Shown here: positions 35,801 to 51,717 of the stretch, piece by piece | Position numbering within the stretch: position 1 is the stretch's first letter | Layout: the number at the start of each line of letters is the position of its first letter | Assembly (NCBI RefSeq): GCF_914271545.1 | Contig: NZ_CAJZAH010000006.1 | Span: 62,001 to 126,000 of the forward strand | Source: Cupriavidus respiraculi | GTDB lineage: Bacteria; Pseudomonadota; Gammaproteobacteria; Burkholderiales; Burkholderiaceae | DNA: 64,000 nt | Direction of reading: 5' to 3' | The notes under the pieces: generated by a model | Told to the model about the DNA's origin: nothing | What the model saw: the letters and a program-made list of their open reading frames with translations, nothing else | The model's database searches: none | Program-made: the position numbers and the translations under genes

Positions 35801-36021
35801 TGCCTGCGCAGGCGGATCCCCCTCCGATTCCGCCCCCCGGATGCGTTCCGCACTCCCGCTTCCCCGCCGCTTTCGTATCCTGTTATAGAAATGAGCTTTA
35901 GACTGCCTGAATGCCGACATGGCGCAGCCCGGCACGTCTGCGCGTTCATCGAGCCCGGCCTGTGCCGGCTCGACATGGCGCACACCGGTCGAACTGGCGG
36001 AATTCGCGAAGGAGGAAGCAA
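35801..36021. other. Intergenic region before the histidine kinase
   Basis: About 220 bases after the second repeat copy without a gene. A frame reads through but has no family similarity. The strong AAGGAGG ribosome site at its end serves the kinase gene. Confidence 0.5.
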
Positions 36022-37152
36022 ATGACCCTGTCCGACTTTATCGAAGCGAACCTGGATGGATTGATCGATGAGTGGAGCGATTACGCCAGAACGATCTGCC
36101 GGAGCGAGCCAGATCTGTCGGAAGCGCAGCTGCGCAATTCGGCCCGGGAACTGCTGACTGGCATTGCCGGCGATATGCGGAAAGCACAGACGGCGACGCA
36201 GCAACATGCCAAGTCAGTGGGAAACCGGCCGCACCCGCAATCGGACTTCAACGCGACGGCGCACCGGCACGCGGACGACCGTCTGGCGCATGGCTTCGAA
36301 ATCAATGGGCTGGTGGCCGAGTATCGCGCTCTGCGGGCGAGCGTGCTACGGAGGTGGCAGGCGGCTCGTCAGCTGGACGACGCCGCGATCCAGGAAATGA
36401 TCCGCTTCAATGAAGCGATCGACCAGATGCTGGCCGAATCGGTCCGGCAGTATGCCCAACGCACCGAGCGCATCCGCGATCTGTTCGCCGCCGTCCTGGC
36501 GCACGACCTGCGCTCGCCGGTCGGGGCGATCCTGAATTCGACGGCGGTGTTGCTGCAGGACGAGAATCTTGGCGCCACCAGCGTGCGGGCGGGCGCGAAC
36601 CTGCAGCGCAGCGCCATGCGCATGAAGCTGCTGATCGATGACCTGTTCATCTTTACCCGCACGCGATTGGGCGACGTGCTGCCGGTGGAACCCACGAAGC
36701 AGGATCTGGGACGCATCTGCGAGGGCGCGGTGGAGGAAGTGCGCGCATTGTTTCCCGACGCGCGTATGCATCTGCAACTGGCGGGCGACCTGGCTGGCGT
36801 ATGGGATGGCGGCCGGATCAGCCAGCTGCTCGTGAACCTGCTGTCGAATGCCGTGCAGCACGGCAGCGGCCGTATCACGCTGGCGGTCCGGGAGGACGGC
36901 GGCGACGTCGCGGTCTCCGTCTCCAATGAGGGCCCCCGGATTCCGGCCGATGCGCTTCCCACGCTGTTCGATCCGCTGACCCGTGTCACGCCCTTGCCGG
37001 CCGAGAGACGGACGGCGCCCGGCATGGGTCTGGGACTGTACATCTGCCGGTGTATCGCACACGCGCACCGGGGCTCCATCGCCGTGACATCGACTGAGGG
37101 CCAGACCGTCTTCACGGTCCGGATGCCGCGTAGTCCGTCGTTGCCCGCCTGA
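36022..37152 (+). CDS. RsbRD-domain sensor histidine kinase, orphan
   Basis: 376 residues, soluble, no membrane helices. The N-terminal RsbRD-type domain (about 10-150, LDGLIDEWSDYARTI and AHGFEINGLVAEYRALRASVLRRW) is a helical sensor module shared with stressosome proteins. It is followed by HisKA with the phosphoacceptor His161 in AAVLAHDLRSPVGAI, and HATPase_c with LLVNLLSNAVQHG (N box) and GMGLGLYICRCIAHAH (G box). The ATG has an excellent AGGAGG ribosome site. No response regulator is adjacent; it lies about 280 bases before the two-partner secretion genes, same strand, so it might influence them, but that is inference. Confidence 0.9.
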   Translation: MTLSDFIEANLDGLIDEWSDYARTICRSEPDLSEAQLRNSARELLTGIAGDMRKAQTATQQHAKSVGNRPHPQSDFNATAHRHADDRLAHGFEINGLVAEYRALRASVLRRWQAARQLDDAAIQEMIRFNEAIDQMLAESVRQYAQRTERIRDLFAAVLAHDLRSPVGAILNSTAVLLQDENLGATSVRAGANLQRSAMRMKLLIDDLFIFTRTRLGDVLPVEPTKQDLGRICEGAVEEVRALFPDARMHLQLAGDLAGVWDGGRISQLLVNLLSNAVQHGSGRITLAVREDGGDVAVSVSNEGPRIPADALPTLFDPLTRVTPLPAERRTAPGMGLGLYICRCIAHAHRGSIAVTSTEGQTVFTVRMPRSPSLPA

Positions 37153-37431
37153 GAGGGCGACAGGGGCATGTCCGGAACACCGGCTTCCGCCACAGGGAGC
37201 CAGCGCAGTAGCCCGGCTCGCGACGGCGCGACCCATCGTCCTGGCTCTTGCCGGGCATTTCAGAGCCTTCCCATTCGTGGGGGCGAACCTCCTCGCTAAG
37301 TTTGCACTGTGGCTGCGTGACACGACGGGCGCAGCCGGGAGTGCGGCGAGCCATGGTGGCGGGGGCAGGCGTGAGCCCCGGTTCCTTCGTGTTCGCAGCA
37401 CCTGTTGCCACCTTGCGATGGGGGAGCGGGC

Positions 37432-39627
37432 ATGCGGTCAGCGGGAACATGGCCTGCCACGGACGGTGGCAGCTTGCAGCGAACGCCGGCGCGCATGGGC
37501 CGCATCGCCGCGGCGGCCCTCGTGTCGGTCGCGGGTTGCGCCATGGCGTCGGTGGTGCCGGACGGTGGATCGGCCACGGTGGTGGCGACGGGCGCCGACG
37601 GGCGGGTCACGGTCGGCATCGCCGGCACCGTCGGCGGCGTCTCCGTCAACACGTATCGGCAGTTCCATGTACTGCGAGCCGGTGTCGATCTGGACAACCG
37701 CGGCGTGGGCGCGCGCACGATACTCAACCAGGTCACCGGCACCGACCGTTCTCTGCTGGCGGGACCATTGGGCGTGCTGGGGCCGCGCGCGAACGTGGTC
37801 ATCGCCAATCCCAATGGCATCAGCGTCAACGGCATGGTGCTCCGCAATGCCGGCAATCTGGCGCTGACCACCGGCCAGGTGACGTTCCGCGATTTCGCCA
37901 CCGGCAATGGCGGCGTGCAGCGCAACCTCGTGCTCGATACGAGCGACGGCGCGATCGAGATCGGCGCAGAGGGACTGGCCGGCTCGCTGCTCAACCTCGA
38001 GCTGGCCGCCAGGTGGATCCGGGTCGACGGCCACGTCGAGAACCGCTACAGCGACCCCAATGCGCGCATTCGCGCGGTGGTGGGCAATAGCCGCGCCCAG
38101 ATCGATACCAGCATCTCGCCCACCGATAACCTGTCGCCCTGGATCCGGTACGTGGCGCCCTCGGTGGCTGCCGGCAAGCCGGTTGCGCTGGATATCACCG
38201 CGGCGGGCGGCCTGACCGCGGGGCGCATCGAACTGCTGATCACGGACCGCGGCGCGGGCGTGCGGCATGCGGGCAACGCGCTGGCGACGGCGGGCGACTT
38301 CGTGCTTTCCACTACGGGCGATGTGCATCTGGGAGCGGGAACTGTTCGCGCCAATGGTGCAGTTCACGTGCGCGGGGCATCGGCGACGCTGGATGCCACC
38401 GCGATCGATGGCGTCGCGGGCACCGCGCTGACCGCCAACCGCATCGCCATGCAACGTGCCACCGTGCGGTCGTCCGGCGGGGCGGTGACGCTGACCGCGG
38501 CGGACGACTACGTGCAACGGGACAGCGATGTGCTGGCCGCCGCCGGTATCGCGCTGCGCGCCGGCACGGTGACGCTGGAGTCGGTGCAACGGCAGGCGAC
38601 GATGATCGCGGACGGGGCAGGCGTGCTGGTGCAGTCGCGGGATGCACTGACGAACCGCGGCGCACTGGTCCAGGGCCGGTCCCGGCTCGCCGGCGAAGCC
38701 GCCTCCCGCGGTGCCGTCACGTTGCGGGCCGGCGGGACCGTCGTCAACGAATCCACGCCGCGGCATCTGGGCATCGTGTTCGGCCTGGCGGACGACATCG
38801 TCGTCGAGGCGGGAGGCGACGTGGTCAACCGCCATGCGCGCATGCTGTCGAACGGCTTCCTGAACGTGATGGCCGCCGGGGACGTTCGCAACGAGGTCAC
38901 CGCCGCGCCGGCGCCGCATGGCGGGCAGCCGGTCTCCTTCCGCGACGCCGGGCGTCGCTGGCTGTGGCTGTCGAAACGCACCGCGGGCTTCGACGTGGAC
39001 TACGGCGCGCTGGAGCGGCCCGGGCAGACCGCCTATTTGCTGTCCGGGAAGGGCACCACGCTGCGCGGCCGCGATGTCGTCAACCGGGGCGGCGAGATCT
39101 ACGCCAATGGCGGTGACATTACCGTCCGCGCGGAGCGGTCGTTCCGCACCGAAGGCATCGCCGTGGGCAGCGCGCACTATGCCCGCCGCTGCATGATCGT
39201 GTGCCGCATGTCGGCATCGTCCACCACGGCCGTCGCGGGCGGCTTGCTGTCCGCGGGCGGAAACATCGATATCCGTGCCGGCGACAGCGCCGCCAATGTC
39301 GGCGGGCGCGTACTGGCGCTGGGCAACCTGCTCGTCGTCGCGCCGCTCACCTATGCCGTTGGACTGGCGAACTACACGCCGCTCGCGCGCGATCGCGGCT
39401 TCAAGGCCTTCTTCGGCGACACCTGGGCGCGCCTGTACGCGGCCGATGTCGGCGGCAACTGGATCGCGGTGGGCCGCGGGCGTATCGACGGCGACGCCGT
39501 CATCGAAGGCGGCAGCGTCGATGGCGACGTCGAGATCGCAGGCGACACGGCGGTCGTCCGGCCGCGGCTGCGTACGCCCGTCACCGTGGAAAACCATCTG
39601 GGCATGACGTCATGGCTGTGGCGATGA
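37432..39627 (+). CDS. Short TpsA exoprotein with filamentous-haemagglutinin TPS domain
   Basis: 731 residues. A signal peptide (GRIAAAALVSVAGCAMA, after a 21-residue lead) precedes the TPS domain (about 45-270) that directs secretion through a TpsB pore. It has the conserved NQVTG box and the canonical VVIANPNGISVNG motif with NPNG at 126-129. A beta-helical part follows with repeats of the GGxVxxxGxLxAGGxV kind (about 290-690). A single close cysteine pair lies in ARRCMIVCRMS. At 731 residues it is short for a haemagglutinin and has no toxin-like or DUF637 end. The ATG at 37432 has GGGGGAG upstream. The stop overlaps the tpsB start region, so they are coupled. Confidence 0.85.
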   Translation: MRSAGTWPATDGGSLQRTPARMGRIAAAALVSVAGCAMASVVPDGGSATVVATGADGRVTVGIAGTVGGVSVNTYRQFHVLRAGVDLDNRGVGARTILNQVTGTDRSLLAGPLGVLGPRANVVIANPNGISVNGMVLRNAGNLALTTGQVTFRDFATGNGGVQRNLVLDTSDGAIEIGAEGLAGSLLNLELAARWIRVDGHVENRYSDPNARIRAVVGNSRAQIDTSISPTDNLSPWIRYVAPSVAAGKPVALDITAAGGLTAGRIELLITDRGAGVRHAGNALATAGDFVLSTTGDVHLGAGTVRANGAVHVRGASATLDATAIDGVAGTALTANRIAMQRATVRSSGGAVTLTAADDYVQRDSDVLAAAGIALRAGTVTLESVQRQATMIADGAGVLVQSRDALTNRGALVQGRSRLAGEAASRGAVTLRAGGTVVNESTPRHLGIVFGLADDIVVEAGGDVVNRHARMLSNGFLNVMAAGDVRNEVTAAPAPHGGQPVSFRDAGRRWLWLSKRTAGFDVDYGALERPGQTAYLLSGKGTTLRGRDVVNRGGEIYANGGDITVRAERSFRTEGIAVGSAHYARRCMIVCRMSASSTTAVAGGLLSAGGNIDIRAGDSAANVGGRVLALGNLLVVAPLTYAVGLANYTPLARDRGFKAFFGDTWARLYAADVGGNWIAVGRGRIDGDAVIEGGSVDGDVEIAGDTAVVRPRLRTPVTVENHLGMTSWLWR

Positions 39628-41366
39628 ACCTGCGTATCGCCGCGTGCGGGCGGCGCCTTCCCTGGCTCGCCATGCTGGCGGTGCCGCAGGCCCTTGCTCA
39701 ATTGCCGCCCGTGCCGCCGGAAGACCCGGCGCAGCGCCTGCTGCGCGAGCAGCGGCAGCGTGATATCGAGCGGGAGGCGTCGCAGAGGGGCCCGCGGATC
39801 GATCGGCGGCAGGCGCATCCGCCGGACGTCCAAGCGGACGCTTCCGGCGAGCCAGCGGTGACCTTCGCCATCGACACCATCGAAGTGCGGGGCAATACCG
39901 TGCTGCCGGAAGACACCATTGCCGCCATGACGGCGCCGTTCCTGCACAAGCGGCTGGGCAGCCGCGACATCGACCTGCTGCTGCGCCGCTTCACCGAAGC
40001 GTTCGTCGCCGCGGGCTATATCACGACCCGCGCCTACGTTGCGGCGCAGAGCCTCGCCGGCGGCCGCCTGATCGTCACCGTCGTGCCGGGCAAGGTGGAA
40101 GCCATCCGCCTGAACGACCGCAGCATCCGCCCGGACCAGGGCGGATGGTTCGATACCGTGGGCGGTGGCTGGCTGACCGATGCCGGCACCGCGTGGCAGC
40201 TGCCCGCGCCCGGGGACACGCTGCAACTGCAGGCGCTGGAGCAAGGGGTCGATCAGATCAACCGGCTGCGCCGCAACCGGGCCGAACTGCGGATATTGCC
40301 CGGGCAGAGCCCGGGTGGCTCCGTGGTGGCGCTGTCCAATCCGTATGGCGACCGCTTCCGTTTGCATCTCGGAGCGGACAACCACGGCAGCCGCGCCACG
40401 GGCATCTCCCGCACGCGGCTGGGCATCGACGCCGACAACGCGCTGGGGTTGCAGGAAGCCATATCGGGAACCTACATCGGTACGGTGGACAGCCATGCCG
40501 CCGTGATCTCCGCCGCGGTGCCGCTCGGCTTCCATACCTTCAGCTATACCGCCTCCGTGTCGGAGTACCAGGACACCATCGGCGATACCGCCTTGCTGTA
40601 CGGGCGCAGCAGCGGCCATACCCTCGGCTGGAACCGGGTGGTCTCGCGCGGCCAGCGCGGGCGGCAGGCGCTGGACCTGACGCTGTCGTACCGCAGGAGC
40701 GAGCGTGACATCAACAACATGGCGCTCGAACCCCAGCGGCTGGCCGTGCTGCGCGGCGCATGGAGCTGGCTGCGCCGCTTCGCGATGGGCGGGCAGCCGG
40801 GCTACGCGACGGCGGAAGCCGGCATCTCGCGCGGCCTGACGGCGGTGGCGGCGACACGGGATCCGTCCGACATCCGACGGGACGAAGCGCATGCGCAATT
40901 CACCAAGTTCGATGCCAACGCCGCCATGCAACTGCCATTGCCCGCGTTCGGCCCGATTCGCTGGGCCTGGCGCGCGCAAGGCGCCGGTCAGTGGGCCAAC
41001 GTCGCGCTGTTCGGATCGGAACAGCTGTTTGCCGGCGGGGCCAGCACGGTGCGCGGCTTTCGCGAAGGCGCGATCGCCGGCGACCGTGGCGCCTATCTGC
41101 GCAACGAGATGGTGTGGGCCAACGTGCCGGCCGCCGCGGCCCTGCGGCTGGAGCCGTATCTGTTTCTCGACGGCGGCCTGACCGGCTATGTGGCGACGCG
41201 CCGCTGGCAGGCCGTGGCCGGCGCGGGCGCCGGCGTGCGCATCGCCGCGCAGTGGGCGCAGCAGATGCTGTCCGGCGAGTTGCTGCTGGGTACGCCGCTG
41301 GCGCAGCCCGGCTATCTGCCCGCGGCCAGGGCGCTGCTGCTCGCCACCATTCACTGGACCTATTGA
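39612..41366 (+). CDS. TpsB outer-membrane transporter (ShlB/FhaC family)
   Basis: 584 residues. The signal peptide (PWLAMLAVPQALAQ) is followed by a charged linker helix (DPAQRLLREQRQRDIEREASQ), POTRA_2 (about 78-155, FAIDTIEVRGNTVLPEDTI), a second POTRA-like segment and a 16-strand barrel. The family box STVRGFREGAIAGDRG sits at about 478-493 on loop L6, with Arg at 481. Starts are ATG 39612 or ATG 39624 (the latter overlaps the tpsA stop as ATGA). It secretes TpsA proteins; being the only TpsB here, it is likely to serve both TpsA neighbours. Confidence 0.93.
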   Translation: MAVAMNLRIAACGRRLPWLAMLAVPQALAQLPPVPPEDPAQRLLREQRQRDIEREASQRGPRIDRRQAHPPDVQADASGEPAVTFAIDTIEVRGNTVLPEDTIAAMTAPFLHKRLGSRDIDLLLRRFTEAFVAAGYITTRAYVAAQSLAGGRLIVTVVPGKVEAIRLNDRSIRPDQGGWFDTVGGGWLTDAGTAWQLPAPGDTLQLQALEQGVDQINRLRRNRAELRILPGQSPGGSVVALSNPYGDRFRLHLGADNHGSRATGISRTRLGIDADNALGLQEAISGTYIGTVDSHAAVISAAVPLGFHTFSYTASVSEYQDTIGDTALLYGRSSGHTLGWNRVVSRGQRGRQALDLTLSYRRSERDINNMALEPQRLAVLRGAWSWLRRFAMGGQPGYATAEAGISRGLTAVAATRDPSDIRRDEAHAQFTKFDANAAMQLPLPAFGPIRWAWRAQGAGQWANVALFGSEQLFAGGASTVRGFREGAIAGDRGAYLRNEMVWANVPAAAALRLEPYLFLDGGLTGYVATRRWQAVAGAGAGVRIAAQWAQQMLSGELLLGTPLAQPGYLPAARALLLATIHWTY

Positions 41367-41391
41367 AGCATCGACCCGACAAGGACCCATC

Positions 41392-42195
41392 ATGCCAATC
41401 CGCATTCGCACGCTGATCGCTTCCGCCCTGATGCTTAGCGTGCACGGCGCGCACGGCGCCACCGTCAACGGCGTCGCGATTTCGGAGGAGCAGGTGTCGC
41501 AGGCCATGGCGCAGGCGCGGCTGCCGGACTCGCCGCAGGCGCGCGCCGCGGTCAGGCAGCAGTTGATCGCCCAGGAACTGTTCCGCCAGGAGGCGGCCCG
41601 CGACAAGACACTGGAGACACGCGGCGACGTGCAGCAGGCCCTGCGCGAGGCCCGGACGCAGATACTGACCCAGGCCTGGCTCAAGGACCGCATCGAGCCG
41701 GAACCCGTCACAGAGGCGCAGGTGCGCGAGCGCTATGACGCCATCGTCGGCTCGCTTGGCGAGAAGGAATACAAGGCGCGCCTGATCGAGGTCGCGGACA
41801 ACGCCACCGCGGCCGCCGCGCTTGCACGGATCGAGGGCGGGGAAGACTTCGGCAAGGTGGCGCGCGACGTGAGCCTGGCGCCGACCAAGGCTAGCGGAGG
41901 CGCGATGGACTGGGTCAGCTTCCCGGTGCCGCCGCGGGAAGGCCGCACCCAGAACCTGCCGCTTCCGCTCGCCGAGGCCATCGCCAGCCTGCCGGCCGGT
42001 GCGGCGACCACCGCTCCGATTGCGTGGAACAACCGCAGCTATCTGGTCCGCGTCGATGAGGTACGGACGACGCAGGTGCCGACCTACGACCAGGCCCGGC
42101 CCGCCATCGAGCAGGTCCTGCGCGCGCAGGCCCTGGAGCGCGCGACCGCCGCGCTGGTGGTGGAGTTGCTGGGCAAGGCCAGGATCACCCAGTAA
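41392..42195 (+). CDS. Parvulin-type peptidyl-prolyl isomerase in the TPS cluster
   Basis: 267 residues with signal peptide (LIASALMLSVHGAHG), a SurA-like N-terminal helical part (VRQQLIAQELFRQEAARD) and a parvulin (PpiC) domain at about 125-220, with ARLIEVADN, GGEDFGKVARDVSLAP and GGAMDWVSF. It is periplasmic and probably a chaperone rather than mainly an isomerase. It lies 25 bases after tpsB and 61 before the large tpsA. In Bordetella pertussis the parvulin Par27 assists the TPS substrate FhaB, but that gene is not in the fha operon; here the parvulin is inside the cluster. AAGGA lies upstream of ATG 41392. Confidence 0.92.
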   Translation: MPIRIRTLIASALMLSVHGAHGATVNGVAISEEQVSQAMAQARLPDSPQARAAVRQQLIAQELFRQEAARDKTLETRGDVQQALREARTQILTQAWLKDRIEPEPVTEAQVRERYDAIVGSLGEKEYKARLIEVADNATAAAALARIEGGEDFGKVARDVSLAPTKASGGAMDWVSFPVPPREGRTQNLPLPLAEAIASLPAGAATTAPIAWNNRSYLVRVDEVRTTQVPTYDQARPAIEQVLRAQALERATAALVVELLGKARITQ

Positions 42196-42256
42196 CCGAA
42201 CGCCGGCGCGCGACGACCGCGAACGACACCCGCACCACCATCGCCAGGACCACACT

Positions 42257-45200
42257 ATGACCCGTGTACCGCAGGGCAGGTCTTGCCTTGATATCGACAC
42301 GGCTGGCGCGCCGCCGCCATGCATGTCGCTGGCGGATCGCGGGCGGCGCAGCGTGCCGGCCCGGATGCTGGCGGGCTTCGTCGCCGCGACGATATGGGCG
42401 GGTCCACCCGCGGCCCACGCGGCACCTATCGCCGACCCGGCCGCGCCGGTGCGCTTCGCGCCCACGATGACGGCGACCACGGGTGCGGCGGCGCCCGCCG
42501 GCGGCGTCCCCGTGGTCAATATCGCCACGCCGAACGCGCAGGGCATCTCGCTCAACCAGTACCGCAGCTTCGTGGTCGATCCCGTTGGCCTGATCCTGAA
42601 CAACAGCAATATCGGCGGAGGCAGTTTCCTGGGCGGGCAGGTGCGGGCGAACCCGCACCTGTCGCGCTCGGGGCCCGCGGGTCTTATCGTCAATCAGGTC
42701 AGCGGTCAGGCGCCGGCGCGGCTCAACGGGACGGTGGAGGTCTATGGCGGCGCGGCGGGCGTGGTGATCGCCGCGCCGGGCGGCGTGTACACGCAGGGTG
42801 CCGGCTTCACCAATACGAAGGACGTCACGCTGACGACCGGTACGCCGCAATGGCTGACCGCCTCGGGCACGGCAACGGGCTTCGACGCGGCCGCAGCCGC
42901 GGGCTTTCTCGTCGAGGGCGGGCGCCTGCAGATCGGCAACGCGTACCCTGGCAATCCGGGGGCCGCGGGCATCGAGGGCACGGTCGCCAACATGCATCTG
43001 ATCGCCGAACATATCGGCATCGATGCCGCCTTGTACGCGGGGGAGCGGATCGACGTCATTGCGGGACGGCAACGCGTCACGCCGGCCCCGGACGGATTCT
43101 CCGTGTCGCCGCCGATGGCCGTCGGAGCCGCGAGCACGCCGGCACCTGCGGCTCTTGCCATCGACGCGACGGCGTTCGGTGCCATGACGGCGGGACAGAT
43201 CCGGCTCGTGAGCACGGCGGTGGGTTTCGGCGTGCGTGCCGACGGCGGCCTTGCGGCATCGGCGGGCAGGCTGGCCATCGACGCCGCCGGCAACGTGAAG
43301 GTGGGAAGCACCTATGCGAAGGACACGGTGCGTATCGACGCCGCGGGCGACGTGGCCACGGTGGGCGCTGGCCTGGGCGAAGGCGGCTACGCGATCCGCG
43401 CCGGCAAGGACGCACGGATCGATGGCGCGCTGGAGTCCGGCAGCGGCGTAGCGGTGTCCGCCGAAGGCGCTATCGCCGGGGGCGGCAAGGTGAAAGCCAG
43501 GGAAGCGGTGGCTCTTGCGGCGGGCGGCAGCGTCGATGTGGCCGGAGCGCTTGGCGGCGCGGCGATCCGCATCTCGGCGGCGGGCCGCGATGGCGCAGGC
43601 GATATCCGCCTCGGTGGCGACGTCGGCGCACCGGGTGCCATCGCGCTCAACGCCGCGCGCGATACCACGATCGATGGCAGCGTCGTGTCGGCAACCGGTC
43701 TCCGCCTGGCGACGCCGCGCAACCTTGCGGTTCACGGCACCGCGGGCAGCAGTGGCGACGAGGTTGCGTTGACCGGGGTGCGCGGCGACGTCGTCACTAC
43801 CGGCCATGTGGTTTCTCCGCACGCGGTCACCGTGACGGCGGGCCGGGACGCCATGCTGGGCGGCAAGGTCGTCGCCAACGGGCCCGTCAGCGTCGCGGCA
43901 AGCGGGGGCAGCATCGTCGGCAGCGCGGACATCGCCACCAATGGCGACCTGACGTTGAGGGCGGGGCGGCAGGTGAACGTCGGCGGCGCGGCGCGGAGCC
44001 TGGGGACGATCGCGATCGAAGCGCGCGCCGGCTCGGCTTCGATCGCGGGCACGCTCGTCGCCGACGGCGCTGTGGCGGTCATGGCGGCGCGGGATGTTGC
44101 CATGAACGGAAGTATCGCCAGCGGCGGCGGCACCACGATCATCGCGACTGGCGGTACGGCGGCTATCGGTGGCGCGCTGGGCAGCATGGCGGATGCGACA
44201 GTGAAGGCGGGGCGCGACGTGCTGCTCGCCGGCAGCCTCACCACCGGCCGCAATGTGTCGGCGAGCGCCGGCGGCAAGCTGGCCGTGGGCGATCTGACCT
44301 GGATCGGCGGCGACGCGATGCTCGATGGCGGCGACGTTCGCATCGGCTCGGCGCCGGGCAGGGCCAACGTCGTCAACGGCAGCCTGTTTGCCACCGCCCG
44401 CGGTGGCGTCGCGCTCGGCGGCGACACGCAGGCAGACGATATCGCGTTGCTCGGCAAGGCGGTCGCCAACGAGGGCACCACCGTGGCGGCGGGGCGGATG
44501 ACCGTCGGCGGCGCGCGCCTCGAGAACACAGGCATGCTGGCCGGCGAGCGGGTCGATGTCGCGACGGGCGATCTGGTCAATCGCGGCACGCTCGGCGGCC
44601 AGGACGTTGGCATTGCCGTGACGGGCGCCTTGGACAACGCGCAGGGTCTGCTGGCCGGCGCAAGGACGCTCGACGTCACGGTCGGCGCGCTGGCCGGCAA
44701 CCGGGACGGGACGCTGTTCGCCGGCGACCTGACCGGCAAGGACCCCACGGTGGGCGATCTTTCGCTGGTCATCACCGGCGCCGAGGGAGGCTTCGACAAT
44801 GCCGGCGGGCAGGTCGTTGCCGGCAATGACCTGACGGTCCACGCGCACAACCTGGCCTTCGATCCATTGGCCACCGACACCGGCAAGCTGGACGCCAACG
44901 GCACGCTGACGCTGGCCGTGCGCGCCATCCGCAACAGCGGCACCTGGCAGGTCGCGGGCGGCAATGCCGTGCTGCATGCCGACGAAGGCATCGCCAACAC
45001 CGGCACGATGCTGAAGGCTGGCGATCTGGCGCTGCATGCGGGTGGGCAGCTCGACAACAGCGGCCAGATCATCGGCACGGGCAGCCTGTCGCTGTCCGGC
45101 TCCGCTATGGTCAACACCGGCATCGCGCACGCCAACCGCGATCTCCGGCTCGGCGGCACCGTGATCAACCGGGGCACGGCGGAGGCGCTGGGCGACATGG

Positions 45201-48200
45201 CGATCACGGGCGGCGGCTACGACAACCGCGGCGGCATCACGCAGGCCGGCCGCGATCTGTCGATCGACGCCTCGGGAACCGTCGACAACATCGGCAGTGT
45301 CATCGGCGCCAACGGCGACATGCATATCGCGGCGGCGGCGATCGTCAACGACAGAACGGCACCGGTCGAGGCCGGCAGCACGACAACGAAGGCGGTCAAC
45401 GAAGGTCTCGTGGCGAGCACCGTCATCGGCAGTTACCGGCCATGGCTCGATGGCGGCAGCTGCGACGGGTGCACGGGCCCGGTGGAAGGGCCGCCGCAGT
45501 CGATCACACTGGCCGACCTGATGCGTGGTCCGGACGGTAGCATCAGGATGGTGATGGGGACCGAGCGCGTCTATGTCGGCGTCGAACAATCCGCGGCCGA
45601 CGGCTACTTCTGGCACCTGATTCCGGCCACGGCAAGTCCGCTGGCCGTCCCCTCGGCGCACGGCGTCGGCGGCGTGCCGACGGTGGACCGGACGGTGACG
45701 AGGCAGTCGGACGGTGTCGCCGGGCAGATCGTCACCGACGGCAGTCTCGACATCGTGGCGGCAACGCTGTCCAACGTGGGCGGCGTCCTGTCGGCGGGCC
45801 GCGACGTCACGCTGGACGTGGGCCGTCTCGACAATGGCCGGTCCGCGACGCTGGCCGGTAGCGTGACCGACTCTGTGAACCGGGACGAATTCGCGGCCCT
45901 GTTGGCGACGCTGGCTTCCTACGTGAATCAGCGCTATGCCAGCACGGTCACCGGCCCGCTGGTCTATGGCGTGCCTTCGCCGCGGGGCGACTGCGACGCC
46001 TGCACGGGTCCGCCGCCGTGGTCGCCCATCGCGCTCGGGGTGGCGGGCGACGGGGCGCCGGCCTCGGCGCCGACCCTGTCCTCCGTCAGTTATCAGTTGG
46101 GCAAGGCGGGGCAGATTTTGGCGGGTGGCGATCTGCGTCTCCGCGGACGCGGCGATCTCGCCAACGACGGCGATTTCGCCGCGGCGGGCGGCATCTCGAT
46201 CATGACGCCGGGCACGTTCACCAACCGCGGTGTCTACGAGAGCAGGCTGACCGCCACGCCAGGCTGCATGGCGGGTGCGCCGGATTGCCCGGACGATTCC
46301 AGTCCGCATGTGGAGAGGCTGGCGTGGCAGCAGACGCCGGCCACGGTGGCCGCGGGCCGGTCGCTGGACATTCAGGCGGCCAATATCCAGAACCTGAACG
46401 CGACCCTGGCGGCGCAGGGCAATGTCAGCCTCGGCGCCGGCGGCAGCGTGATCAACGCGTCGGGCGCCGTGCAATCGTTGCTGGGCGACGTGGCCCTCGA
46501 CGCGCCGGCCTTGGTCAACAAGGCCATGGACCCGGCGAGGGTTCACAAGAGCTATGGCGGCATGAACCCGCCCTATGCGGGCGGCTGCAATCCGGCCGGG
46601 ACCCATGGCAATAGCCAATGCGCCGCGGAGGAAGACACGGCGGCCGGACCCGCCGGCATCATCGCCGCCGCTCGTGACGTAAAGCTGGCCGGGACTACGC
46701 TGTCCAACCGCGGCGCGCTGATCGCCGGCGGCCGCGACGTCACGGTCGACATGGTGGACGGCGTGGACAACGCCAGCATCGCGCTGAATGCCGACTGGAT
46801 CGGGCGCTGGCAAGAGAGGCGTGCCGGCGGAGACCGCTGGCACGACACCGGCGGCCGATCCGCCATTGGCAGCCTCGAGTCGGCCATCCAGGCAGGCGGC
46901 TCGCTGTCGGTCAGTGCGGGCGGCCGGATCCTCAATACCGGCAATCTGCTCGGCGGCGCGGTCGACGTCACCGGCGCCGCGCTGATCAACGGCTTCACGA
47001 GTCCGGCCCAACCGACGCCGCCGGCCACTGCCGTGCGGCAGGTGATCCCACTGGGACCGGTAGCGGCGCCGGAGGGCGCCGTGGCGGCCGCCAAGCCCGT
47101 GCGCGATCCCACGCGGCCCTGGCACTTCGCGCCCGCCGTCGTGGCGACGCCGGTTTCCCCGACGGTGGGAGGTCCCGCCACCGTGGAATGGCACTTCCAT
47201 GCGGCGCTGCCCGGTGACCGTGTCTCGCCGCCCGAAGGCCGCGCGCAGTACGTTGGCCTGAGCGCCGCCCAGGCGGTCCTCGCCGGCATCACGCCAGACA
47301 GCCTGCTCGCGCAGTTGCCGGCCGAACTGCGGGGCGGCGGCGTGGCCTTCTACTACGACCCGTACACGGAAGGACTGAGACTGCAGCAGGCCGCGCTGCA
47401 ACACTCCGGGCAATCGACCTTTCTCGATGGGCTGGCATGGGACAGCCAGACCCGCCTGTCCATCGCCGACCAGGAAAAGCTGGTTCTCTACCGCAACGCC
47501 GCCGAATACGCGAAGGCGCACCACATTGCGCTCGGGCAGGCGCTAACGGCCGAACAGGTTGCCGCGCTCGATGCGCCGATGCTCTGGTACGTCGAGCAGG
47601 CCGTTCCGGATCCGGACTGCGATGCGGTGGCCGGCAACGCCTGTCCGCTGGTCCATGCGCTGGTGCCGCAGGTCTACCTGCCGGCGGGACACGCACGGGC
47701 CCTGACCAAGGCTACCGGCGGCAATATCGCGGGCGGAAACGTCACGCTCGATATCCAGGGACAGCTGCGCAACAGTGGCAGGGTGCTCGCCACGGACAGC
47801 CTGTCCGTGCGGGCAGGCAGCATCGAGGCGGCGCCGAATGTCGTCAGCATCGGCACCTCCGCATACCGGACGAAGGGCGGGTGGAACGAGGTCACGGGCA
47901 CGGCGGTGCAGCCCGGCGGCGTCATGAGCGCGATGCGGATGCAGATCGACGCCGGGGCCCTCCACGCGGTCAATGACGCCTTCCTGATCCGCGGGGCCGA
48001 CGGGTCTGTCGACGAAGCCGCAACGCTGCGGCTGCTGGACCAACTGAAGGCGAACCTCGGGCTCGACTACACCGAGGGCACGGTCGCCGACGACATCCAT
48101 ACGCGCTTCATCAAGGAAAGAACCGGGGTGGGGCCGATCGGCCAGATCGCGATGATGGTGGCGGCCGTCGCGGTGGCCGTGGTCACCTCGGGTGCGGCAT

Positions 48201-49207
48201 CTGCGGCGCTCGCCTCGGCACAGGCGGCAGCCGCCGAGTCGGGAATGACGACGTTGATCGCGACCGGTTCCGTGGTCGAAGCGTCGGCCGCCGGAGGCGT
48301 GATGGCAAGTTCGGCCTTTGCCGCGGGCGGCATCGGGAATCTCGCCATTGCCGGCGCGCTGGGCGGGATGGCGTCGAGCGCCGCCATGCAACTGGGCATG
48401 ACAGGCAAGCTCGACCTGAAGCAACTGGCGACGGCGGGCGTCGCGGGGGCGGTGACGGGCGGCGTGACCGGGTATTACGGTCCCTCCTATGGCGTCGAGC
48501 GCCTGCTCGCCTCTGCCGGCACCGGTTGCGCGACCGCCGCGATACAAGGGGACGATTGCGGCGCCGGTGCCATCGCGGGCTTCGGGACCGCGGTGGTGGC
48601 ATGGGCCGCCGACGCGATGCGGCAGGACCAGATCGAATCGTCGCGGCGGTTCAAGGGCATCGTCGATGCCGGCAAGGCGGGGCCGCCCGAACTGGTGTCG
48701 AACGCCACCGGCAAGAGTGTCGGCGTCAACGGGGACCGGTTCAAGCTCGCCGGTACGCGGGTCAGCGTGGATGACCTGCGCAAGTATGGGACGGTCGAGC
48801 CGCTAACCGATGGTGTGCTGGCGTTCCGGGGTGTGGCGCTGAACCCGAAGACTAAAAAGACATGGACGCTCGCCGAGGCGCTGGCAAAGGACGGCGGCTT
48901 TACCGGCGGATTCCAGGGAGGTGACGGCACGTTCGGGGGCGAGCCATATTCCCCCGGATCGTTCGCGGACAAGCTGATGGAGTCGTTCGCCGGCCCGCAC
49001 GATTACCTGGGGAGTTTCGCGGGCTATGACCCACTGGGAAATCTGAGGGGAGGCATGACCACGTTTGAGCGGGCGATGTTCGAAATCCAGACCGTTATCG
49101 ACATCCCGCTCGCAGCACCATTCGCAGGCGTGACGCTGCTCGAACAATACGGAATGGATTGGTCTGCGTTTCATCATCAGAACGAGCGATCGAGGAGGAA
49201 CAATTGA
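42257..49207 (+). CDS. Large TpsA, filamentous-haemagglutinin-like exoprotein with polymorphic-toxin-like C-terminus
   Basis: 2316 residues. Long signal region with core MLAGFVAATIWAGPPAAHA; TPS domain about 75-310 (SLNQYRSFVVDPVGLILNN, LIVNQVSG). Where relatives have NPNGI, this protein has APGGV at about 173-177. A very long beta-helix (about 320-1900) is built from Gly/Ala-rich repeats with AGRDV and LDNxG motifs. Two CDxCTGP motifs lie at 1069 and 1246, and further paired cysteines occur nearby. A hydrophobic Ala/Gly-rich pretoxin region (about 1966-2120, DUF637-like) precedes a 187-residue C-terminal domain (from about 2130) with ELVSNATGKSVGVNG and ESFAGPHDYLGSFAGYD. That last part resembles variable toxin-tip regions, activity unknown. 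The stop overlaps the following gene's TTG start. Confidence 0.9.
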   Translation: MTRVPQGRSCLDIDTAGAPPPCMSLADRGRRSVPARMLAGFVAATIWAGPPAAHAAPIADPAAPVRFAPTMTATTGAAAPAGGVPVVNIATPNAQGISLNQYRSFVVDPVGLILNNSNIGGGSFLGGQVRANPHLSRSGPAGLIVNQVSGQAPARLNGTVEVYGGAAGVVIAAPGGVYTQGAGFTNTKDVTLTTGTPQWLTASGTATGFDAAAAAGFLVEGGRLQIGNAYPGNPGAAGIEGTVANMHLIAEHIGIDAALYAGERIDVIAGRQRVTPAPDGFSVSPPMAVGAASTPAPAALAIDATAFGAMTAGQIRLVSTAVGFGVRADGGLAASAGRLAIDAAGNVKVGSTYAKDTVRIDAAGDVATVGAGLGEGGYAIRAGKDARIDGALESGSGVAVSAEGAIAGGGKVKAREAVALAAGGSVDVAGALGGAAIRISAAGRDGAGDIRLGGDVGAPGAIALNAARDTTIDGSVVSATGLRLATPRNLAVHGTAGSSGDEVALTGVRGDVVTTGHVVSPHAVTVTAGRDAMLGGKVVANGPVSVAASGGSIVGSADIATNGDLTLRAGRQVNVGGAARSLGTIAIEARAGSASIAGTLVADGAVAVMAARDVAMNGSIASGGGTTIIATGGTAAIGGALGSMADATVKAGRDVLLAGSLTTGRNVSASAGGKLAVGDLTWIGGDAMLDGGDVRIGSAPGRANVVNGSLFATARGGVALGGDTQADDIALLGKAVANEGTTVAAGRMTVGGARLENTGMLAGERVDVATGDLVNRGTLGGQDVGIAVTGALDNAQGLLAGARTLDVTVGALAGNRDGTLFAGDLTGKDPTVGDLSLVITGAEGGFDNAGGQVVAGNDLTVHAHNLAFDPLATDTGKLDANGTLTLAVRAIRNSGTWQVAGGNAVLHADEGIANTGTMLKAGDLALHAGGQLDNSGQIIGTGSLSLSGSAMVNTGIAHANRDLRLGGTVINRGTAEALGDMAITGGGYDNRGGITQAGRDLSIDASGTVDNIGSVIGANGDMHIAAAAIVNDRTAPVEAGSTTTKAVNEGLVASTVIGSYRPWLDGGSCDGCTGPVEGPPQSITLADLMRGPDGSIRMVMGTERVYVGVEQSAADGYFWHLIPATASPLAVPSAHGVGGVPTVDRTVTRQSDGVAGQIVTDGSLDIVAATLSNVGGVLSAGRDVTLDVGRLDNGRSATLAGSVTDSVNRDEFAALLATLASYVNQRYASTVTGPLVYGVPSPRGDCDACTGPPPWSPIALGVAGDGAPASAPTLSSVSYQLGKAGQILAGGDLRLRGRGDLANDGDFAAAGGISIMTPGTFTNRGVYESRLTATPGCMAGAPDCPDDSSPHVERLAWQQTPATVAAGRSLDIQAANIQNLNATLAAQGNVSLGAGGSVINASGAVQSLLGDVALDAPALVNKAMDPARVHKSYGGMNPPYAGGCNPAGTHGNSQCAAEEDTAAGPAGIIAAARDVKLAGTTLSNRGALIAGGRDVTVDMVDGVDNASIALNADWIGRWQERRAGGDRWHDTGGRSAIGSLESAIQAGGSLSVSAGGRILNTGNLLGGAVDVTGAALINGFTSPAQPTPPATAVRQVIPLGPVAAPEGAVAAAKPVRDPTRPWHFAPAVVATPVSPTVGGPATVEWHFHAALPGDRVSPPEGRAQYVGLSAAQAVLAGITPDSLLAQLPAELRGGGVAFYYDPYTEGLRLQQAALQHSGQSTFLDGLAWDSQTRLSIADQEKLVLYRNAAEYAKAHHIALGQALTAEQVAALDAPMLWYVEQAVPDPDCDAVAGNACPLVHALVPQVYLPAGHARALTKATGGNIAGGNVTLDIQGQLRNSGRVLATDSLSVRAGSIEAAPNVVSIGTSAYRTKGGWNEVTGTAVQPGGVMSAMRMQIDAGALHAVNDAFLIRGADGSVDEAATLRLLDQLKANLGLDYTEGTVADDIHTRFIKERTGVGPIGQIAMMVAAVAVAVVTSGAASAALASAQAAAAESGMTTLIATGSVVEASAAGGVMASSAFAAGGIGNLAIAGALGGMASSAAMQLGMTGKLDLKQLATAGVAGAVTGGVTGYYGPSYGVERLLASAGTGCATAAIQGDDCGAGAIAGFGTAVVAWAADAMRQDQIESSRRFKGIVDAGKAGPPELVSNATGKSVGVNGDRFKLAGTRVSVDDLRKYGTVEPLTDGVLAFRGVALNPKTKKTWTLAEALAKDGGFTGGFQGGDGTFGGEPYSPGSFADKLMESFAGPHDYLGSFAGYDPLGNLRGGMTTFERAMFEIQTVIDIPLAAPFAGVTLLEQYGMDWSAFHHQNERSRRNN

Positions 49208-49854
49208 GAACGACAGCCTGGGGTTACTGGATACTGGTCGGTGCCGCGTGCGGTGGATGCCTTCATTCCCCGGCGAACTACCCTGGTGCCGGGGGCAGCA
49301 ACATCGACCCGGACCAGTACATGAACGCGGCATGCCCGGACCTGAGCGGCAGGTATGCGGGACGGGGAGACCTTCTCGAAGGAGACCCGAATACGCAGCG
49401 ATGGAGCAAGACGATGCCCATTGACTATGCCTTTCCGTTCGCCAGCAACGCCGAGCAGATTGCGTTCTACAAGCCGTCCGAGTCGGACGGGCCAACCAAG
49501 GGCAGGTCCTATCCCAAGGTCGGCGAACTGCGAAAGGAGGGAAGCCGTTCCTTCCACTTCAGTGTCGACTACGCAAACGGGAAGTCTTCCTCCTACGTCG
49601 TCTCGTTCGAGAACAAGGGCGGATTCGTCTGTACCGGCGCCGATGGCAAGATCGTCTGGGGCGGCGCCAGCAAGGGGGGACGCTCCGAGTTCGGACCGAA
49701 CACTTCCGATGCGATGGTCATGCTGTATCTGGACGAGCAAGGCAATCTTATTTCCGAGGAGACAACGCAGGTCCACATGAGCATGCTGTTCGGCCTGATC
49801 CCGACCGGCACCGCCAGATACTTCTCCAAATACCGCTTCCAGCGGATCAGATAG
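49204..49854 (+). CDS. Putative lipoprotein, candidate immunity protein of the TpsA
   Basis: 216 residues from a TTG start at 49204, with GAGGAGGAAC directly before it. The TTG overlaps the TpsA stop (TTGA), which shows tight coupling. The N-terminus has a basic residue, a hydrophobic run ([11 protein letters not shown]) and lipobox-like cysteines, so the protein is probably lipidated in the periplasm. The mature part begins near [15 protein letters not shown], a beginning seen in small envelope lipoproteins, and is otherwise beta-rich ([25 protein letters not shown]). I recognise no family. Its place after a toxin-like TpsA tip suggests an immunity role. It could instead be an accessory envelope protein. 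Confidence 0.7.
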
Positions 49855-50235
49855 CCCGCATAAACCGCGCGCATCGACAGTGATACACTCGCGCCTGCCC
49901 GTCGGGGCGGGCGCCCGCAACCAGGCGGGCCGGCACCGTCACCGACACGATCTCCGTTTCCCCGTACGCTCCCCACGCCAATGTAAGTCCCCGCGCCTCC
50001 ACCATCGTTTTCGCTTTTCACGGGCTGGAGGCCGGAACTGGTCACAGGCACACGCGCACGCGCGTGGCCGGCGTCTCCCTTCGCGTTGCCGCGCCCGCGG
50101 CCGCCATGTAGGGTCGCCTCTGCGATATCCCCAATCGCCGGCACGCGTCGCGCGCCGGGATGGCCGACCAGGGCTCGCCTCCATGCGCATCGCGTGCGCC
50201 ATCGCCGTTCGCCGTACGCGCCACTGGAGTCATTG
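49855..50235. other. Intergenic region before the SulP transporter gene
   Basis: About 380 bases without a convincing gene. It is GC-rich with short inverted repeats (GCCCGTCGGGGCGGGC near 49895), but I recognise no riboswitch or clear promoter. No terminator with a T-run follows the putative immunity gene. Confidence 0.4.
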
Positions 50236-51717
50236 ATGATCTCGAACAAATACCGCCAGGAATGGCTATCCAATATCCGCGGCGACTGCCTGTCCGGCAT
50301 CGTCGTCGCGCTGGCCCTCATTCCCGAGGCGCTCGCCTTTTCCATCATCGCGGGCGTCGAGCCCAAGGTCGGCCTCTATGCCGCCTTCGCCATCGCGGTG
50401 GTCACGGCCATCGCGGGTGGCCGTCCCGGCATGATCTCCGCCGCCACCGGCGCGGTGGCGCTGCTGATCACCTCGCTGGTGAAGGATCATGGCGTGCAGT
50501 ATGTGTTCGCCGCCGCGGTGCTGGCAGGCCTGCTGCAGATCGGCGCCGGTGTGCTGAAGCTCGGCGCGCTGATGCGCTTCGTCTCGCGGTCGGTGGTCAC
50601 GGGCTTCGTCAATGCGCTGGCCATCCTGATCTTCCTGGCGCAGCTGCCCGAACTGATCGGCGCGCCGATGGCGGTCTATGCGCTGACCGCGGGCGGACTG
50701 GCCATCATCTACCTGTTCCCGCGCCTGACGCGCGCGGTTCCTTCGCCGCTGGTCTGCATCGTCGTGCTGACCGCCATTGCGGTCACGCTGGACCTGCCGG
50801 TACGCACGGTCGGCGATATGGGCGCCTTCCCCGACCAGTTGCCAGATTTTGCGTTGCCCGCGGTGCCGCTGACGCTCGATACGCTGCGCATCATCTTTCC
50901 CTATGCCGTCGCGATCGCGGTGGTGGGGCTGCTCGAATCGTTGATGACCGCCGCCATCGTGGACGACTTCACCGATACGTCCAGCGACAAGAACCGCGAA
51001 TGCCGGGGGCAGGGCCTTGCCAACATCGTCGCGGGCTTTCTCGGCGGCATGCCGGGCTGCGCGATGATCGGCCAGTCGATCATCAACGTGAAGTCGGGCG
51101 GCCGCGGCCGGCTGTCGAGCTTCGTGGCCGGCGCCTTGCTGCTGGTGCTGGTCGTGTTCCTCGGACCCTGGGTCAAGCAGATTCCGATGGCGGCGCTGGT
51201 CGCCGTGATGATCATGGTGTCGATCAGCACGTTCAGCTGGCGCTCGCTGCTGAATCTGCGGACCCATCCGCGCAGTTCGTCCGTGGTCATGCTCGCGACG
51301 GTGGCCGTGGTGGTGTTCACGCACAACCTTGCGATCGGCGTGCTGGTGGGCGTGCTGCTCAGCGCGCTGTTCTTCGCCTCCACGGTTCGCAGCGTGCTGA
51401 AGGTGGAATCGGTGCTGGAGAACGGCGGCCAGCGCCGCCGGTATCTGGTGCGCGGCCAGGTGTTCTTCGCCTCGTCCGAGGCGCTGGTTGCCGAATTCGA
51501 CTTCAAGGAGCCCGTCGCGCACGTGACGCTGGACCTGTCGCATGCTCACTTCTGGGACATCACCGCGGTCGACGCGCTCGATCGGATCGTCCACAAGTTC
51601 CGCCGCAACGGCATCGCGGTCGAGGTCTGCGGCCTGAATCGCGCCAGCGTGACGATGGTGGAGCGCTTCGGCACGCACGACAAGGCGCAAGCCGGTCCGG
51701 CCGGCCACGGTCATTGA
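50236..51717 (+). CDS. SulP-family inorganic anion transporter with STAS domain
   Basis: 493 residues. It starts with [32 protein letters not shown], the SulP family block, followed by 10-12 membrane segments (for example [18 protein letters not shown]). A cytoplasmic STAS domain (about 390-485, [27 protein letters not shown]) is at the C-terminus, with the DxxxVxALD-type loop. Members carry sulfate, bicarbonate or other anions; the substrate is unknown, and no carbonic anhydrase gene is adjacent. The frame reads upstream to 50086, but ATG 50236 with TGGAG upstream fits the family. It converges on a membrane-protein gene 19 bases after its stop. Confidence 0.93.

Follow-up and report, generated by a model that had tools for sequence, protein, structure and literature searches.

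A two-partner secretion (TPS) cluster with one TpsB transporter, two TpsA substrates, a parvulin and a lipoprotein raises the question of what such a set of genes is for. The cluster in question belongs to Cupriavidus respiraculi and lies in a stretch of 64,000 nucleotides (contig NZ_CAJZAH010000006.1, positions 62,001 to 126,000), which is called the window below. It consists, in order, of a short TpsA (A1), the TpsB, a parvulin-type prolyl isomerase (PPI), a large TpsA (A2) and a predicted lipoprotein. The initial annotation had listed these five genes on the plus strand with this order, these gaps and these overlaps, and open reading frame (ORF) and domain scans bear it out. From comparison with related loci, the cluster is probably a contact-dependent inhibition (CDI)-like locus of distinct architecture, with an export triad (A1, TpsB and parvulin), an A2 carrying an exchangeable C-terminal tip, a lipoprotein for immunity, and a toxin acting in the periplasm. 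It would fall into three parts, namely the fixed triad, A2, and the swapped tip together with the lipoprotein.

The triad was surveyed with the parvulin as a query against 249 genomes drawn from the family. Among the parvulin matches listed, some are weak (E above 1e-32, 29-42% identity) and the others strong (E up to 5.5e-35, 35-66% identity). Of the 83 strongest matches listed, the window's own excluded, 75 places were examined with their flanks; among the eight strong places without flanks, L029 and L031 show a TpsB before the parvulin. A TpsB adjoins the parvulin in 46 of the 75 places, and in every one of these 46 the order is A1-TpsB-parvulin, with the A1 or TpsB frame in pieces in L050, L154 and L183 and A1 cut by the contig end in L180. 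By hand count, at least 43 genomes of the draw besides that of the window carry the triad, which is thus common in the family. The gene set had been taken as uncommon at first, but its core is not. The large TpsA follows the parvulin in 33 of the 46 places and precedes A1 in nine (L039, L040, L044, L053, L152, L153, L156, L198 and L204). The latter order is also found on named plasmids, pBMC401 of Burkholderia ambifaria (L148) and pBPHY02 of Paraburkholderia phymatum (L149), where the large TpsA is followed by a small gene of its own, annotated in L149 as an immunity 8 family protein. The five genes are, therefore, not one conserved unit, since A2 can lie upstream or downstream of the triad and the lipoprotein goes with the tip. 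In the remaining 29 places (e.g., L150, L159, L182, L190 and L196), close relatives of the triad parvulin occur and no TpsB was found in the surroundings.

In a tree of 24 triad TpsBs and ten from other loci bearing the same tip family, built without any characterised CdiB, the triad sequences form a separate clade on one side, with a branch support of 100/100. In the source genome (5.59 Mb, 18 contigs), the TpsB of the cluster is the only one found by family searches, and the TPS domains of A1 and A2 are the only two, so the earlier reading of one transporter for two substrates holds. Precedents are known in Bordetella FhaC and meningococcal TpsB2 (PMC10449530; this and the other papers are cited from the part of their text that was available). 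The cluster has what defines two-partner secretion, TPS-domain substrates and a POTRA/barrel transporter. The domain scan also places a PPIC-type isomerase domain in the third gene, whose product is predicted to be periplasmic from an N-terminus that looks like a signal by eye. The best NCBIfam relative of this parvulin is EpsD, far below the cut-off.

The A1 proteins are a uniform family. The 44 aligned sequences are mostly 680-780 aa (amino acids) long, with a few longer ORF readings, and the 43 relatives share 37-61% identity with the A1 of the window. Each is built from a TPS domain, a variable middle and a conserved C-terminal half with a C-x3-C motif, whose Cys pair is invariant in a nine-row alignment of that half. 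The NPNG motif of the TPS domain is conserved in A1; it reads APGG in the A2 of the window and of three relatives from the same genus (L035-L037), and is kept in eight other complete A2s aligned. Outside the family the C-terminal half is rare: searches with it (limits 1e-20 and 1e-15) gave three other genomes out of 300 drawn from the order and one more out of 349 drawn from the phylum, and a TpsB adjoins it in all five loci from these draws. A1 is proposed to be a regular small co-substrate of the TpsB and probably a surface partner needed by A2, which is the weakest step of the mechanism. It could instead be an adhesin or decoy in its own right that only uses the same transporter, in keeping with the ability of TpsBs to serve several TpsAs (PMC10449530) and with the four triads near which no large TpsA was seen; yet A1 is strongly conserved and present in all 46 triads, and we consider its independence doubtful, at rather less than an even chance. 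The decoy role, raised in the initial annotation, is unlikely and was not favoured because none of the 46 triads lacks A1.

The exchange of the tip is seen when A2 is compared with its relatives. Against three A2s of the same genus (L035-L037) and that of Cupriavidus basilensis, identity per bin of 60 residues is mostly 40-80% up to about residue 1980, with some bins at 22-40%; from there to residue 2100 it is 24-48%, and past that point it does not exceed 27%. The A2 backbone of C. basilensis is 61% identical over residues 718-2071. The G+C content (GC) is 70.7-72.1% across A1, TpsB, PPI and A2 to residue 2120 (71.0% in the backbone) and falls to 62.1% for the tip and to 60.2% for the lipoprotein gene, and the tip value is below every one of 36 backbone windows of the same size (lowest 67.9%). 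Among 12 A2 ends, the window's included, no pairwise BLAST match at E 1e-3 was found over the last 100, 120 or 160 residues. Ten triad A2 ends were scanned: one matches the EC869-type CDI toxin PF21111 (E=8.1e-49), one the EndoU nuclease PF14436 (E=1.8e-12) and one DUF6883 (7.5e-13), while one match lies below the cut-off and six ends have none. The first 20 other triad loci gave 11 complete A2s, and in all of these N-E-[AT]-[LIQ]-N-N stands 165-395 residues before the end, a count that is partly by construction because the pattern was written after viewing the triad tips. Tail-only pieces of A2 lie downstream in L035 and L036, like orphan CDI modules. In C. basilensis (L072, 8001-9230), a broken tip of the window type and a relative of the lipoprotein (48%) stand behind an A2 with another tip.

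Since other triad A2s carry other tips, two of them from known toxin families, the cluster would work like a CDI locus. As in such loci, the TpsB adjoins a large TpsA with a TPS domain and filamentous haemagglutinin (FHA) repeats, and the tip varies on a conserved backbone; a small partner gene directly after the TpsA is indicated by both position and co-variation. The CDI-like role, which was at first an inference, is thereby strongly supported by comparison. We say 'works like' and not 'typical' because the window A2 has no VENN-like pretoxin motif, which is usual, not universal, in CDI proteins. All 11 other complete triad A2s do have one, namely the N-E-[AT]-[LIQ]-N-N given above. The likeness to E. 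coli-type CDI (cdiBAI) lies in the TpsB before a large TpsA, the polymorphic tip, the partner gene directly after it and the tail pieces downstream in relatives of the locus. Unlike cdiBAI, the window locus has an extra short TpsA and a parvulin in a fixed triad, an A2 without the VENN-like motif, and a lipoprotein as the partner.

A scan of genome contigs with the window tip as a single sequence found nothing. With a tip profile, the contigs of 84,980 species yielded 78 loci that belong to beta- and gammaproteobacteria and to a few groups besides, the best 80 of 90 matches being retained. Among the matches kept, those of highest identity to the window tip are in C. basilensis (65%) and C. numazuensis (69%, a partial match). 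The TpsB either precedes the TpsA, as in the E. coli-type order, or follows it (L080, L084). Some members of the tip family sit on tail-only pieces without a TPS domain. In an alignment of 48 tips, Q100, D118, E122, G126, H128-D129, Y137 and G141 (tip numbering) are invariant; of these, D, E, H-D and Y point to an enzyme. At its very end the tip is hydrophobic, and a Pro there is nearly invariant. The G..HD of the tip resembles phospholipase A2 motifs, and no sequence match was found. The prokaryotic phospholipase A2 was set aside as a comparison family, being found in 1 of 150 genomes. Against Protein Data Bank (PDB) profiles, the tip and the lipoprotein gave weak matches only, the best for the tip at 0.39.

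The linkage between tip and lipoprotein was counted in 72 tip loci whose frame runs to its own stop; the six with an early stop (L072, L105, L114, L119, L134 and L143) were left out of the 78, and some of the matches, L074 included, are partial. An ORF with a lipobox follows the tip in 59 of the 72 (60 by the rule, less L084, whose ORF is the TpsB). It follows none of 13 control tips from other triad or plasmid loci (nine with an ORF, four without), and a lipobox occurs in 13 of 286 other ORFs of at least 200 aa on the same loci and at 94 of 2160 random positions. The Fisher p of the excess is 1e-8 against the other tips and 1e-41 against the other ORFs. By BLAST, the partners form families of 37, 7, 6 and 6 and eight singles (one being the TpsB of L084), with the window lipoprotein in the family of seven. 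In 49 of 64 cases, a tip and its nearest neighbour have partners from one family; the mean after shuffling was 22.8 and the maximum 38 in 1000. A C-P-x-L-S-G-x-Y-like motif of the window lipoprotein is also found in four members of one family of six and in three singles, and in none of the family of 37 or the other family of six. Some partner families may be distant kin because they have this motif in common.

In Dyella sedimenti (L070) and C. numazuensis (L074), related tips are immediately followed by relatives of the window lipoprotein. Orphan relatives were met in three records from Paraburkholderia replicons, with no tip in the two inspected; those of P. caribensis and P. caledonica (L067, L068, 14001-14627) have no recognisable tip in the sequence examined around them. 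The lipoprotein itself has no family match up to E=1 in domain library scans. Its lipid-bearing Cys is the second of the two in a 12-residue stretch, judged from aligned relatives. The early description of a parvulin and a lipoprotein-like last gene holds. The lipoprotein as a conserved part of the locus was rejected, as no match at E <= 0.001 was found in 299 other genomes of the order, one of which (L056) has a remote relative behind its tip. The initial annotation, which is partly supported, had named homologous loci with these genes unlinked as a finding that would refute it. Such loci do exist for the lipoprotein, because it accompanies the toxin tip; A1-TpsB-PPI is fixed. These comparisons show the tip and the lipoprotein to be a pair that is exchanged horizontally, and most likely they are toxin and immunity protein.

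The mechanism proposed runs as follows. The TpsB would export A1 and A2 to the surface, as its family and theirs suggest, while the parvulin, from what its family does, would keep the unfolded TpsA chains export-competent in the periplasm. On contact, A2 would pass its C-terminal tip into the neighbouring cell, as in CDI, and the lipoprotein would neutralise the toxin in the periplasm of the producer. The toxin most likely acts in the periplasm of the target or on its membranes, because the partner is a lipoprotein and most family tips have no VENN-like pretoxin motif; of 42 tip proteins for which 200 residues or more could be read upstream, one has the strict motif.

Several observations weigh against this picture. 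The final 616 residues of the window's A2 contain no VENN-like motif, and a looser pattern ([AVIL][DE]NN added) occurs within 300 residues in 5 of the 42 family proteins (L077, L091, L100, L115 and L124). The 48 tips gave nothing beyond chance in Pfam and NCBIfam (best values 0.015 and 0.024, each in one member). Thirteen of the 72 tips are without a lipobox partner: seven have no ORF of 80 aa near, L084 has the TpsB, and five have another ORF, four of these looking exported by eye. The lipobox rule was self-made and relaxed once after the misses had been viewed, the stricter version giving 43 of 78. Of the 13 control tips, only nine are informative, the other four having no ORF of 80 aa near by; two of these four lie close to where the sequence examined ends. 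In 15 of the 64 cases, a tip and its nearest neighbour differ in partner family; eight of these are single-member families, for which no match is possible. For A1, conservation is the one line of evidence on its role, and the four triads without a large TpsA near by (L042, L154, L158 and L171) fit an A1 that works alone.

A different reading of the place of action is that the tip, in the manner of the CDI ionophores, reaches the cytoplasm or inserts into the inner membrane, the lipoprotein doing no more than stop it on its way through the periplasm. Ionophore toxins do exist in CDI (PMC11630599), the tip has the hydrophobic end described above, and a VENN-like tetrapeptide of the loose kind is present in four tips, the strict motif in one. 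The partners, however, look like lipoproteins and not like membrane or cytosolic proteins, the motif is absent from most tips, and the invariant D, E and H-D look catalytic by eye; entry of this kind is, therefore, judged unlikely. Action in the periplasm, the preferred reading, would be a new mode if confirmed, because current models have CDI toxins released in the target periplasm and then sent on to the cytosol or inner membrane (PMC9086364, PMC11630599), and because only one immunity family, Imm65, was a lipoprotein in the available text of the 2012 survey of polymorphic toxins (PMC3482391). The Tox-JAB-1/Imm65 pair resembles the present one in joining a polymorphic toxin to a lipoprotein immunity protein. 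It differs in its toxin fold and is listed for Bacteroidetes and the type II secretion system (T2SS) (PMC3482391), whereas the window tip family sits on TpsA proteins of many proteobacteria.

A lipoprotein is also part of Burkholderia-type CDI loci (bcpAIOB), which occur, by inference, in the same bacterial family. There, BcpO, a predicted outer-membrane lipoprotein, is needed for full activity (PMC3415462), and MafA is a lipobox protein beside the MafB toxins (PMC3482391), so that the window lipoprotein might be a structural accessory of A2 export or anchoring. This is quite unlikely: no such lipoprotein stands behind other triad A2s with complete ends, the lipoprotein tracks the tip even when this sits on another backbone or on a tail piece that has no TPS domain, and the partners form several families unlinked by BLAST that match tip subtypes, as immunity proteins do. 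The order A-I-O-B also differs from that of the window, where the lipoprotein goes with the tip and occupies the immunity position. The allelic tips of bcpAIOB follow Nx(E/Q)LYN, which resembles the N-E-x-L-N-N of other triad loci (PMC3415462); a motif of that definition was not found before the window A2 tip. The word 'isomerase' occurs 0 times in the available text of the main bcpAIOB paper (PMC3415462).

Many TpsAs are adhesins, and an FHA-type adhesin cluster in which the A2 tail is a prodomain or anchor would suit the FHA-like A1 and A2 of the domain scans and a tail that is widespread and without known activity, but it is the least probable of the alternatives, as the tail is exchangeable and differs in GC from the backbone, the ends of two other triad A2s belong to known toxin families, and a partner gene stands behind most tails.

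The closest parallel for the parvulin is Par27 of Bordetella, a periplasmic parvulin that acts on a TpsA. Par27, in the available text, was found as an interactor of FHA and its mutant still secretes FHA (PMC8151025), whereas the parvulin gene of the window lies between the TpsB and the large TpsA.

Features of the cluster in the window (positions counted from the first nucleotide of the stretch)
Feature	Position	Strand	Length	Basis
A1, short TpsA	37432..39627	+	731 aa	PF05860 TPS domain E=1.8e-29; without toxin tip
TpsB transporter	39624..41366	+	580 aa	POTRA_2, POTRA_3, ShlB PF03865 E=8.8e-68
Parvulin-type PPI	41392..42195	+	267 aa	Rotamase_2 E=9.5e-14
A2, large CdiA-like TpsA	42257..49207	+	2316 aa	TPS E=5e-27, Fil_haemagg E=2.3e-6
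TPS domain of A2	42491..43303	+	residues 79-349	domain scan
Toxin tip of A2 (putative)	48617..49204	+	residues 2121-2316	alignment of 48 members; GC drop
AGGAGG, likely ribosome-binding site of the lipoprotein gene, within the A2 end	49193..49198	+		sequence
Predicted lipoprotein, candidate immunity protein	49204..49854	+	216 aa	relatives behind related tips; GC 60.2%

The genes are closely packed. A1 and TpsB overlap by ATGA and A2 and the lipoprotein gene by TTGA, while gaps of 25 nt (nucleotides) and 61 nt separate TpsB from PPI and PPI from A2. The lipoprotein gene most likely starts at the TTG at 49204, five bases past the AGGAGG, rather than at 49159. A consensus scan of 36900-50500 gave no sigma-70-type promoter and is not informative on co-transcription; two terminator-like sites, both intragenic, were found in the same region, fewer than in shuffled sequence. 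There is no PADLOC match to anti-phage defence up to E=1. Directly upstream lies a gene for a sensor histidine kinase with an RsbRD-type N-terminal domain (35911-37152), a possible regulator, and downstream one for a sulfate permease family protein with a STAS domain (50236-51717).

Two main organisations of CDI loci, with variants, have been described (PMC9086364, PMC11630599), and several TpsAs per TpsB, polymorphic tips, orphan modules and the Burkholderia CDI lipoprotein are already known (PMC10449530, PMC5422565, PMC3415462). In the open-licence papers searched, neither the triad nor the tip family was found described, and no TPS or CDI locus of which a parvulin or second short TpsA is a part. 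What would be new here is that the triad is a fixed unit and that lipoprotein partners accompany the tip family. A wider proposal, made tentatively and given somewhat short of an even chance as a whole, is that the triad loci represent a third CDI architecture, mainly of Burkholderiaceae, in which the small TpsA and a dedicated parvulin are obligatory for export, and that the tips of this large family, found here and on other TPS backbones throughout the proteobacteria, mostly skip the pretoxin and entry step and attack from the periplasm, with several lipoprotein families giving immunity. The fixed triad makes it testable whether TpsA export has dedicated periplasmic helpers, which the par27 mutant, as far as the available text goes, left open (PMC8151025). 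If the reading is true, the CDI scheme would be widened by a family of tips that goes no further than the periplasm, and its lipoprotein partners make this directly testable.

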